Of a stretch of DNA of 64,000 nucleotides, positions 747 to 16,287 are shown piece by piece. The first letter of the stretch is position 1. Each line of letters starts with the position of its first letter. The position numbers were made by a program, and so were the translations under genes. Source of the DNA: Streptomyces sp. NBC_00464. Lineage in GTDB: Bacteria; Actinomycetota; Actinomycetes; Streptomycetales; Streptomycetaceae. The notes beneath the pieces are model-generated. The model made no database searches. It was given only the letters and a program-made list of their open reading frames with translations, and had not been told where the DNA came from. The stretch is from the NCBI RefSeq assembly GCF_036013915.1, contig NZ_CP107899.1, positions 2,728,001 through 2,792,000 on the forward strand. Direction: 5' to 3'.

Positions 747-1009
747 CGCTGTCCGAGTCTAGGGCGCCGCACTGACACTCCGGGCCCGAGTGATGAAGCA
801 CGCACCGGCAGGCGGGCACACAGAGCGAGCAGGGGAACGCGCGGCGTGGGGGAAGCCCGGGTCCACCTGCCCCGCAGCACCCCAATTCGCCGAGGTCACG
901 AAAATGTATCGGGCATATCGAACATCAACCTTCACAGCGGCACCATGAGTTGGCTAGCGTGCTCGTTCGGGCGGCCCGTACCCCCAGAGGCGATCCACGC
1001 CGAGCGGGC

Positions 1010-1160
1010 GTCCACGCCGAATCCGGGCTGCCCGTACGGGAGTCCGGAACCGGGGACCCACACGCAGCACCGGGGTGAATCGGTCCGAATCCCCCACCAG
1101 GACCGTAGGGCAGCCTTCCGTTCCGCCCGAACCCGACAGCTAACCCGGTAGGCGGTCCAC
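1010..1160 (+). promoter_or_regulatory. c-di-AMP riboswitch (ydaO-yuaA class)
   Basis: The leader of the first NlpC/P60 gene carries the conserved blocks of the ydaO-yuaA aptamer in order: CCGGGGACCCA near 1050, CGGGGTGAATC near 1071-1081, TAGGGCAGCC near 1109-1118, and CCGAACCCGACAGCTAACCC followed by GGTAGGCGG near 1129-1157. The distal helix arm ends only a few bases before the Shine-Dalgarno sequence at 1161-1168, so ligand binding could affect either read-through or ribosome access. Streptomyces riboswitches of this class control cell-wall hydrolases (rpf-type and NlpC/P60 genes), which fits the gene behind it. Exact aptamer ends are estimated. The second hydrolase gene at 3156 does not have these blocks. 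Confidence 0.9.
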
Positions 1161-1177
1161 GGAAGGAGATGCCGGCC

Positions 1178-13431: not shown

Positions 13432-13461
13432 TTGGCCCGGGCCCGCCACCGGGTCCATACT
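13432..13461 (+). promoter_or_regulatory. Probable promoter of the chorismate-mutase leader
   Basis: A -35-like TTGGCC (13432-13437) and a -10-like CATACT (13456-13461) are spaced by 18 bases. The next six bases lead directly to the ATG of the leader peptide at 13468, so the transcript would begin at or within a base or two of the start codon (leaderless mRNA), as is common for amino-acid leader peptides in Streptomyces. Confidence 0.55.
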
Positions 13462-13467
13462 GTCCGC

Positions 13468-13539
13468 ATGCGTCAGCACACGATCTTCGTCTTTACCTAT
13501 GGCACCCGGCCCGCCGGCTGCCATGGTCGTGCTGCTTGA
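13468..13539 (+). CDS. Putative Phe/Tyr leader peptide of the chorismate mutase gene, 23 aa
   Basis: Short frame [20 protein letters not shown] followed by RAA and TGA. Three aromatic codons (Phe-Val-Phe-Thr-Tyr) cluster at positions 7-11, the amino acids made from the product of the downstream enzyme. Immediately after them the frame runs through a hairpin (ATGGCA at about 13499 with TGCCAT at about 13524, plus inner CCGGC/GCCGG), and 25 bases beyond the stop lies the strong hairpin at 13564-13589. This is the layout of a translation-controlled attenuator. No Shine-Dalgarno is visible; a leaderless transcript is suggested by the promoter position. Not experimentally supported here. Confidence 0.6.
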
Positions 13540-13563
13540 GCAACTGACAAGCAACGTTCCAGG

Positions 13564-13589
13564 CGCCCCGGGCCGACAGGCCCGGGGCG
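13564..13589 (+). terminator. Putative attenuator terminator before chorismate mutase
   Basis: Perfect 11-bp stem CGCCCCGGGCC / GGCCCGGGGCG with loop GACA, followed by TTCT. It lies between the leader peptide stop (13539) and the chorismate mutase start (13649). CGGCCC within the leader hairpin region can pair with GGGCCG in the left arm, offering an alternative antiterminator. A second imperfect hairpin follows at about 13600-13620. Confidence 0.6.
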
Positions 13590-13648
13590 TTCTGGCGTTC
13601 CGGGCCCGGTCGGGCCCCGGGGAGTCCCCATCCACCGGGAGATCCCTC

Positions 13649-13954
13649 ATGAGCACCACCACCACCACCGCCAGGACCGCCGCCGACGTGACCGGGGCGC
13701 ACACCGACGAGGCCGCGTCCCTGATCGCGGACGCCCGGACGCGCATCGACGCCCTCGACGACCGGATCATCGGCCTCGTCCAGGAGCGGATGGCCGTCTC
13801 CACGGTCATCCAGGAGGCCCGGATGACCTCCGGCGGCCGCCGGGTGAACCTCTCCCGCGAGATGGAGATCCTGGGCCAGTACCGGGACGCGCTGGGCAGG
13901 CCCGGCACCTCCCTCGCGATGACCCTGCTGGAGCTGTGCCGCGGCCGCGTGTGA
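13649..13954 (+). CDS. Chorismate mutase (AroQ type)
   Basis: 101-residue all-helical AroQ-class chorismate mutase, converting chorismate to prephenate for Phe and Tyr synthesis. Diagnostic residues: Arg and Asp in [20 protein letters not shown] (first helix), Arg/Lys positions in [20 protein letters not shown], then the third helix [14 protein letters not shown]. The start ATG 13649 has GGGAG 7 bases upstream; the first ten residues (STTTTTART) are low complexity. It is preceded by the leader peptide and attenuator described separately. Small stand-alone AroQ enzymes in actinobacteria often need a partner (DAHP synthase) for full activity, but none is adjacent. Confidence 0.9.
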
Positions 13955-14307: not shown

Positions 14308-16053
14308 TCATCGGGTCGCGCGGCGGCGGCGGGACACCGTGTACAGGACGCCGCCCGCGGCCAGGGCGACGAGAGCCGCGCCGCCGGTCATCAGCGCGGT
14401 GGAACCGGTGGAGGCGAGATCGCCCCCGGTGTCACCGCCGCCGGTGGTGCCGTTGCCGCCGGTGGTGCCGGCCGAGGACGAGCCGGCCGAACCGCCGGAG
14501 TCGCCGGACGCGCTGCCGCTGTCCGAGGAACCGCCGGTGGAGCCGCCCGTGGCGGCCGCTCCGCCCGAGCCCGAGGTGGTTCCACCGGTGGTGGAGCCGC
14601 CCGAGCCCGAGTCCTTGGCGTTCAGCACCAGGGACGCGGTGTTGTTGGCGGTCTTGGTGTCGAAGCGCAGGCCGGGGTCGCCGAGGTGGATGTTGCGGAC
14701 CCAGACCTTGCCGGACGCCCCCGCGACCACCTTGTCGATCTTCAGCTTGAAGGGGAAGGCGAAGTCGGCGTCCTCACTCACGGACATCGGCGTGGAGCAG
14801 AAGTAGCGCGGGGCGCCCTTCTGGTTCTCGCGGTAGTCGCCGTCGGCGGTCACACCGCGGCAGGACTCGGGCCTGTCGACGACCGTGGCGCCCTCGGGCA
14901 CGGTGATGTCCACCGTGGCGACGTCCTCGCCGGAGCGGAGATTCCCGACCCAGGCCGGTCCCCGGTTACGGAATCCGACCGTCGCCTCGACCGTGGCGCC
15001 CGCAGCGCCCTTGACCCGCGCCCCGTACGCCGCGAAGTCGGCGCTGTTGGCGGTCTGGAAGTCGACTTCCTGCTGGTTGTCGCCCGGCTCCAGGTCGGCC
15101 GAGCGCGCCGACGGGGCCTTGCGCAGGGTCAGCGTGGCGCCCTCGCCGGAGCTGTACCGCGCACCGGCCCGCTGCGCGGCGCGGGCGGCGGAGCCGTCCT
15201 CCGTGACGCTGTAGAGGAAGGTGTCGTAGAACGCGCGTGGAGTGGCCTTGATGCTGGGCGGCTCTGCCAGCGTGTACGTGACGCCCGGCTCGTAGCTCCC
15301 GTCGAAGGAGCACAGCGCGGTGGTCCAGCTGTCGGCGGAACCCAGGCCCAGCCCCTCCTCGCTGTACTCGCAGTTCCGGTACCGCTCGGTGAACGCCATG
15401 CCGCGGGTGTGGCGCAGGGTGAGCAGGACCCCGTCGGCCGCGCGCGTGCCGTTGTTGGTGAAGGTGAGGGGCGCCGGCTGGCTGTCGCCGGGCTTGAGGT
15501 TCGTCCTGAACGGAATCCGCTTCATCGACAGGTCGGGTCCGCCGATGCCGACGTGGGCGGAGAAGGACCGGAAGGTGGCGCCTTCCGCCTCGGCGGTGAC
15601 CTCGATGGTCCCCGCGTCGCCGTCCTTGCTGCCCTTCGCCGCGGTGAGTTCGAGGTCGGCGACGGTGCTCAGGCCGGGGAAGATGCCCCAGTCGTGGCAG
15701 ACGGCGGTCGTCCCGGTGGTCTCGCAGTCCGCGCTGCCTTCCTCGCTGAACGACACATCCGCGACCCCGGCGATCCCGCTGAGGTCGAAGCGGACGGTGT
15801 ACTCCTCGCCGAAGGTCCCGTTCTCCTCGTCCTCGGACGGGTTGTTGACCGTGAATCCGAGGGTCGCCTTCTGCGGGGTGCCCGTGGCCGGGTACGGGTG
15901 CAGGGCGGTGTCGGCGGGGCCTCCGAGGGTGAACTCGGGGGCCGCGGCCCGGGCCGGGGTGTTCAGGGCGAGAGCACCGGCGGCCAGAAGGCCGGCTGCG
16001 GCGAAACCTCCGGTGACGCGACGGAGAGCTGCTCTCGGGGGCGTGCTTCTCAT
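14308..16053 (-). CDS. Sortase-anchored (LAXTG) surface protein
   Basis: 581-residue exported protein attached to the cell wall. N-terminal signal peptide (MRSTPPRAALRR, hydrophobic GGFAAAGLLAAGALALN, cleavage after ARA|AAPEF). The body (residues ~35-460) has repeated beta-strand-rich segments with Cys pairs (SADCETTGTTAVC, YRNCEYSEEG, CSTPMSV), resembling DUF11/Ig-like cell-surface modules. A Gly/Ser/Thr-rich wall-spanning stretch (~470-540) leads to the sorting signal LASTG (546-550), a hydrophobic helix (MTGGAALVALAAGGVLY) and the tail SRRRRATR. LAXTG is the preference of class E sortases of Streptomyces. Start ATG 16053 follows AAGGG. No sortase gene is in the window. Ligand or enzymatic function is not apparent. 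Confidence 0.87.
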   Translation of the reverse strand: MRSTPPRAALRRVTGGFAAAGLLAAGALALNTPARAAAPEFTLGGPADTALHPYPATGTPQKATLGFTVNNPSEDEENGTFGEEYTVRFDLSGIAGVADVSFSEEGSADCETTGTTAVCHDWGIFPGLSTVADLELTAAKGSKDGDAGTIEVTAEAEGATFRSFSAHVGIGGPDLSMKRIPFRTNLKPGDSQPAPLTFTNNGTRAADGVLLTLRHTRGMAFTERYRNCEYSEEGLGLGSADSWTTALCSFDGSYEPGVTYTLAEPPSIKATPRAFYDTFLYSVTEDGSAARAAQRAGARYSSGEGATLTLRKAPSARSADLEPGDNQQEVDFQTANSADFAAYGARVKGAAGATVEATVGFRNRGPAWVGNLRSGEDVATVDITVPEGATVVDRPESCRGVTADGDYRENQKGAPRYFCSTPMSVSEDADFAFPFKLKIDKVVAGASGKVWVRNIHLGDPGLRFDTKTANNTASLVLNAKDSGSGGSTTGGTTSGSGGAAATGGSTGGSSDSGSASGDSGGSAGSSSAGTTGGNGTTGGGDTGGDLASTGSTALMTGGAALVALAAGGVLYTVSRRRRATR

Positions 16054-16287
16054 CTCGGGCCCTTGTGGTCGTCGGGAGCTGTGTGACCGCTGTGACAGCG
16101 GCATGCATACGACCACGGGCGAGCCGGGATGGTTGCGCGCGTTCAGATCACGAATCGGGTACGCCGTCGGGCGTGACCGACCTCACATCGGAATGTCATC
16201 GGCCGGGGACAACTATCCGGACTCCTCGCAGGTCATCCATGCGGAACACCGGTCACACCGCTGCGCGGTCGCACCGGCTACAGCGTG

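Follow-up and report, generated by a model that had tools for sequence, protein, structure and literature searches.

The closest known systems to the element described here are the AroR leader of Corynebacterium glutamicum, reportedly the work of Neshat et al. 2014, and pheL of Escherichia coli, an ORF led by a Shine-Dalgarno sequence with many Phe codons and no Tyr codon. AroR, in the available parts of the sources, is a leader peptide containing Phe-Tyr-Phe located before aroF, which encodes a DAHP synthase (PMC11802643, PMC4046766); it works by ribosome stalling and answers to Phe, Tyr being described as without effect (PMC11802643). The same partly available text names pheL as the attenuator of pheA, the gene for chorismate mutase-prephenate dehydratase (PMC11802643). 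For Streptomyces lividans, the accessible part of one study lists eight leader peptides (two for Leu, two for Trp and one each for Ala, Ile, Met and Thr), none of them for Phe or Tyr (PMC8079986), and for the Phe/Tyr operons of actinobacteria, a 2005 survey reports, in its available part, no conserved upstream RNA structure (PMC1262725). In the open-access literature searched, as far as its texts were available, we found no mention of a Phe/Tyr leader for chorismate mutase in actinobacteria, and a chorismate mutase leader is absent from the available passages of PMC3765725, PMC4833913, PMC13236596, PMC4633059, PMC3890552 and PMC9094748.

The window analysed here, i.e., the whole stretch of 64,000 nt of Streptomyces sp. 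NBC_00464 (NZ_CP107899.1, 2,728,001-2,792,000, forward strand), contains a chorismate mutase gene (13649..13954, + strand as for all parts of the element; profile match to CM_2 and to the equivalog NF005894) that is divergent from guaA. As in attenuators, this gene is preceded by a short ORF, predicted to be translated, with codons for the end products of the pathway. The initial annotation had described a leaderless 23-codon Phe/Tyr frame with a promoter ending six bases before it and chorismate mutase downstream, and all of these parts are in place: the ORF, whose product contains FVFTY, occupies 13468..13539 (stop codon 13537-13539), and the −10 element CATACT (13456..13461) ends six nt before ATG 13468. 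The ORF includes a Phe codon TTC (13486-13488), the control Phe codon TTT (13492..13494) and the control Tyr codon TAT (13498..13500), the last within the 5′ arm of a hairpin, P1. The element is very probably a ribosome-mediated transcription attenuator on a leaderless transcript; as far as can be judged from sequence, the earlier reading of an aromatic attenuator before chorismate mutase appears right, and understated.

Like AroR, in the available description, the element is an actinobacterial Phe/Tyr leader peptide with putative ribosome stalling before a gene of the aromatic pathway, but AroR, compared here by description, precedes a DAHP synthase whereas the Streptomyces element precedes a chorismate mutase. 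With pheL, also compared by description, it shares a Phe leader peptide and predicted attenuation before a chorismate mutase activity; it differs in its leaderless ORF with two Phe codons and one Tyr codon, and in its monofunctional enzyme. The TrpL1 leader of trpE in Streptomyces, as described in the accessible part of the study, resembles it in having a leaderless leader ORF, control codons and hairpins, but its codons are Trp codons and the gene, trpE, is another one (PMC8079986).

The element is present in a single copy in its own genome, other blast matches being short with E values of 0.01 or worse. The motif TTTASCTATGGCA occurs once in the window at up to two mismatches (0.10 occurrences expected; 9 of 100 shuffles have one). 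A search of the whole window against Rfam 15 at the curated threshold gave no riboswitch, T-box or trp leader match at the chorismate mutase leader. The only Rfam 15 match in the window is a c-di-AMP (ydaO/yuaA) riboswitch at 1005-1170 (+ strand, 71.3 bits). Elsewhere in the window, positions 14308-16116 of the − strand encode a predicted protein with a C-terminal LASTG motif, a hydrophobic stretch and a basic tail, which presumably resembles a sortase-anchored surface protein.

Of 137 leaders, 136 have a loose −10 hexamer located 6 or 7 bases 5′ of the start codon (L079, with AATACT outside the pattern, was left out of the −10 count). The strict form [CT]ATA[CA]T is found in 108 of the 137, versus one of 548 ATGs of the window (gap 5-8), and a Shine-Dalgarno motif before the start codon is absent from all 137. 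Both features speak, indirectly, for the transcription start at the leader ATG that the initial annotation had proposed to map. The −35-like sequence TTGGCC (13432..13437), as read from the sequence, is weak and lies 18 nt before the −10 element; a TTGR-type −35 is present in only 49 of 136 leaders. At the locus, a promoter scan detected no consensus −35/−10 pair and a terminator scan no hairpin with at least five T in the eight positions behind it. Since these mechanical scans were empty, both the promoter and the terminator calls rest on comparison. Of the promoter proposed in the initial annotation, the −10 hexamer is thus backed by the family comparison, whereas the −35 is weak and the consensus scan lends it no support.

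Eighty loci, 77 of them titled Streptomyces, were fetched by similarity of their chorismate mutase genes, and the leader is present in all 79 readable ones, the contig of L026 starting too late. Three leaders missed by the first core pattern (L006, L017 and L131) were added to the leader count afterwards. In the sample of genomes from the family, a blastn match was obtained in 102 of 150, and among 60 more distant family loci that were fetched, 58 have a leader followed by chorismate mutase in the same orientation. L173 and L174, with neither leader nor chorismate mutase, were discarded as chance BLAST hits. Of the 132 genomes sampled from the genus of the window, 129 have the element according to a covariance model (one weak match was subtracted from a tally of 130); the other three, G116, G445 and G471, gave no credible match. 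A gene similarity search found only a weak chorismate mutase match in G116, which suggests that the element and the gene were lost together in this genome.

The leader RNA has a predicted folding energy of −71.2 kcal/mol (z = −6.4 versus 200 dinucleotide shuffles). It can form the 1:2 (protector/pause) hairpin P1 (13497..13526; CUAUGGCA.CCGG / CCGG.UGCCAUGG), the hairpin P2 (13533..13553; UGCUUG/CAAGCA), which spans the stop codon, and a GC-rich terminator hairpin with a weak U-rich tail (13559..13595). The terminator core is an 11-bp GC stem (13564-13574/13579-13589), extended by 5 bp past a bulge, and its arm GCGCCCCGG is nearly invariant. When no ribosome is present, the 5′ half of the ORF could pair with its 3′ half (P0, 13468..13543).

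In an alignment of 69 representatives, 92.1% of the cells of P1, P2 and the terminator are paired, and 43 cells are changed on both sides, versus 18.5 in shuffles (none of 500 reaches 43) and 6 to 22 with slid partners. Changes on both sides affect 6 of the 15 terminator pairs among the family representatives, and in P2 (helices 3 and 4 of the alignment) there are covarying pairs and about 81% of the cells are paired. The putative intrinsic terminator before the gene combines a strong, covarying stem with a weak U tract. No pair of P1 is changed on both sides within the family (69 representatives). Across families, a swap test on 31 sequences gave −15.9 kcal/mol for cognate P1 arms versus −12.4 for swapped ones (z = −7.5, 0 of 5000). 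P1 overlaps the control codons, as does the 1:2 hairpin of trp/phe-type attenuators. The same kind of test argues for P0, with z = −8.6 (0 of 5000) in the 69 representatives and z = −2.3 (60 of 5000) in a thinned set of eight.

The candidate antiterminator pairs the loop and 3′ arm of P1 (13507..13526) with the 5′ arm of the terminator (13559..13575) and encloses P2. In the swap test on 31 sequences, cognate strands reached −17.5 versus −15.0 kcal/mol for swapped ones (z = −6.6, 0 of 10000). Restricting the set to one sequence per family-and-arm combination (21 sequences) gave z = −5.9. The procedure does not fully correct for kinship, and the cognate arm is better than the mean of other-family arms in only 22 of the 31 leaders. 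The arms were picked by eye, as automatic picking failed for about a dozen of the 31, and an uncurated run gave z = −4.2 (p 0.0002, 25/31). Matched arm changes, also read by eye, include AGCCCGG/CCGGGCU (L211), ACUCCGG/CCGGAGU (L213), GGUCCGG/CCGGACC (L150 and L234) and GGACCCG/CGGGUCC (L209). With the ribosome edge set after TAT, the antiterminator forms around P2, with at least nine pairs, in 68 of 68 minimum-energy folds (L080, in which the terminator pattern was unmatched, was omitted). In 68 leaders, the duplex energies do not surpass those of dinucleotide-shuffled arms (mean z −0.28); because GC content alone stabilises such duplexes, the case for the antiterminator rests on the swap test and on the constant topology. 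By folding and comparison, this pairing is exclusive with both P1 and the terminator, as in described attenuators.

The pause-type hairpin, the 11-bp GC stem and the antiterminator pairing of the initial annotation are thus all found by sequence and folding, and the covarying stems that it had proposed to look for appear as swap-test signals (P1, antiterminator) and as changes on both sides (terminator, P2). Its wider statement that all parts of attenuation are present holds for the codons, P1, the antiterminator and the GC stem; the U tract is weak and escapes the terminator scan.

The codons, the hairpins P1 and P2, the terminator, the antiterminator pairing and the gene context, as established at the sequence level, suggest how the start site, translation, stalling, termination and the amino-acid response could be linked. 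The transcript would begin with the A of ATG 13468 or a neighbouring base, so that a 70S ribosome would initiate at once. With ample charged tRNA, the ribosome would reach the stop codon and cover the 3′ arm of P1 together with P2; the terminator would then form and RNA polymerase would halt before chorismate mutase. If charged tRNA-Phe (probably tRNA-Tyr too) were short, the ribosome would stall at TTT/TAT, holding the 5′ arm of P1, the loop and 3′ arm of P1 would then capture the 5′ arm of the terminator in a pairing that encloses P2, and RNA polymerase would read on. In the absence of translation, P0/P1 would form and the terminator would win.

Beyond the family, a class-wide search with the model covered 296 genomes and produced many weak hits, of which 35 places were fetched. 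Thirteen have a leader with chorismate mutase downstream (two in family f31, one in f46, two in f37, seven in f48 and one in the window's family), and the leaders of another 13, all in f17, combine Phe, Trp and Tyr (FWFWYG, WSFWYG, FWRFYG). Nine places (L210, L216, L221, L226, L227, L228, L240, L242 and L243) were rejected as false hits without leader ORF, so the class-wide tally of 170 of 296 is not a leader count. A second search, anchored on chorismate mutase, in which 20 loci of six families were fetched, identified leaders with Phe and Tyr in 3 of 7 loci of f4, 7 of 8 of f18, both of f14 and the single loci of f21, f35 and f12, those of f12 and f14 being judged by ORF only. One of the f18 loci, L257, was counted by its motif TTTTATGGG only, no ORF having passed the scan. 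No leader was found at the chorismate mutase of L247, L248, L249 and L250 (f4) or of L251 (f18) with these patterns, which ask for Tyr, though they allow TTC, and therefore miss leaders without Tyr. Altogether, chorismate mutase leaders were found in the window's family and in ten others (f4, f12, f14, f18, f21, f31, f35, f37, f46 and f48).

In f17, the gene after the leader is a DAHP synthase in 13 of 13 loci by N-terminal sequence, an identity checked with profiles in three of them (TIGR01361, PRK08673). These 13 leaders (L209, L212, L214, L217, L218, L219, L220, L222, L223, L224, L225, L239 and L241) are leaderless. Where folded, they follow the same plan of P1, antiterminator and terminator. 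They may be nearer relatives of AroR, and possibly serve attenuation in response to Phe, Trp and Tyr alike. In families other than the window's own, all 13 of the leaders before DAHP synthase contain a Trp codon, versus 1 of 26 before chorismate mutase. This codon-follows-gene rule is not strict, since Trp codons also occur in the window's family: outside Streptomyces, many of its leaders have one in the P1 loop (GTGWSG), past the stall site, and in L135, L138 and L151 a Trp codon adjoins the control Phe codon.

Other aromatic genes of Streptomyces served as controls. A similar scan recovers the TrpL1 leader of PMC8079986 (MFAHSTRNWWWTAHPAAH) beside a class II DAHP synthase gene in the window's own genome, and TrpL-like ORFs are present at six of eight class II DAHP synthase loci, along with single other ORFs. 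The TrpL1-type leader of this genome adjoins the class II DAHP synthase gene at about position 2968 of locus L270, on the reverse strand. At prephenate dehydratase and pheS, with eight loci each, only single, non-recurring ORFs were obtained (L274, L278, L279 and L285).

The Phe and Tyr codons, whose conservation the initial annotation had put forward as a check, are nearly invariant. Of the 138 leaders compared (that of the window, with 79 and 58 from the two sets of fetched loci), 137 use TTT as the control Phe codon and 136 use TAT as the control Tyr codon; L172, with a shifted motif (FTQG), is the exception for both, and L127 has TAC. The FxYG motif is in frame across the family leaders except L172, with FIYG in L017, and Ser replaces the first Phe of the leader in L020, L024 and L059. 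By comparison, 36 long window ORFs picked by codon-position GC contain 360 Phe codons, one of them TTT, and 324 Tyr codons, 16 of them TAT.

Phe sensing is the firmest part of the proposed mechanism, and Tyr sensing is likely, albeit less sure, because the Tyr codon is also part of P1 and AroR, in the available text, is reported to be insensitive to Tyr (PMC11802643). It is possible, although we consider it doubtful, that the attenuator is a variant that senses Phe only, TAT being kept mainly for the pairing of UAU in the 5′ arm of P1 and Tyr supply having no effect; L172, which retains Phe and has lost Tyr, would fit such a variant. The first base of the Tyr codon nevertheless forms a UG pair in 64 of the 69 representatives and a UA pair in 3; a CG pair, the better one, which would give a His codon, is found in none, and this speaks against the variant. 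Leaders of 11 other families have Tyr as well, a weaker point since the search pattern asked for Tyr. Some leaders of f18 and f21 have just one Phe and one Tyr codon, which weighs against the attenuator reading as a whole, as does the recovery of a leader at no more than 3 of the 7 loci of f4.

As for the preference for TTT, the rare UUU probably makes the sensor sensitive through slow wobble decoding. In 11 other families, 40 loci were tried and 39 yielded a leader ORF, each with at least one TTT, although the places found with the model lean to TTT because it was built on TTT leaders; in f17, the start pattern made 10 of the 13 DAHP synthase ORFs readable, and these contain no TTT and 43 TTC. 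A competing account, bearing on this codon only, is that TTT is invariant because it keeps the stretch before P1 unpaired or acts as a transcription pause signal. The stretch from TTC to TTT indeed forms a bulge between P0 and P1 in the minimum-energy fold, and the A[CG]C after TTT is nearly invariant as well; against this, the codon preceding TTT varies and TTT is present with different flanks in the leaders of other families, making the account unlikely.

Within Streptomyces, the whole peptide, including its C-terminal GCHGRAA, is strongly conserved, as would be expected if the nascent peptide arrested the ribosome in response to a metabolite. Yet the frame shifts soon after FTYG in L020, L072, L120, L126, L127 and L129, and after GCH in L133, L139 and L177, with the RNA motif kept in all nine, so that the conservation of GCHGRAA acts at the RNA level and a peptide-level function of this C-terminus could be discarded. 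The leaders of other families moreover share little besides F, Y and the P1 hairpin, and peptide arrest is very improbable. Translational attenuation, in which the strong hairpins upstream of chorismate mutase would mask its ribosome binding site, is hardly credible, since the Shine-Dalgarno-like GGGAGA (13637..13642) lies about 41 nt past the terminator and the tblastn gene match begins 168 to 417 nt from the start of the leader query in 58 relatives, a distance too variable to offer the hairpins a fixed partner. Ribosome-mediated transcription attenuation, in turn, accounts for the codons and their placement in P1, for pairings that exclude one another, for a gene at variable distance and for a codon set that changes with this gene.

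The chances appear evenly balanced that these elements descend from one ancient aromatic leader of Actinomycetes, found at chorismate mutase in at least 11 families and at DAHP synthase in another, with codons matched to the branch of the pathway (Phe/Tyr versus Phe/Trp/Tyr) and with the rarest Phe codon, UUU, as an obligate slow-decoding element. The element is apparently a widespread and undescribed attenuator of known mechanism, as judged by comparison: it is almost base-for-base conserved in Streptomyces and recognisable in ten other families, despite the negative result in the available part of the 2005 survey (PMC1262725). The main value of the finding lies in this breadth, in the branch-matched codons and in the near-invariant rare UUU, which offers a clean way to ask if a tRNA sensor is tuned by codon choice. 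For organisms that use aromatic precursors for antibiotics, such an attenuator would account for the control of the branch point between Trp and Phe/Tyr, and it would be a clear engineering target.
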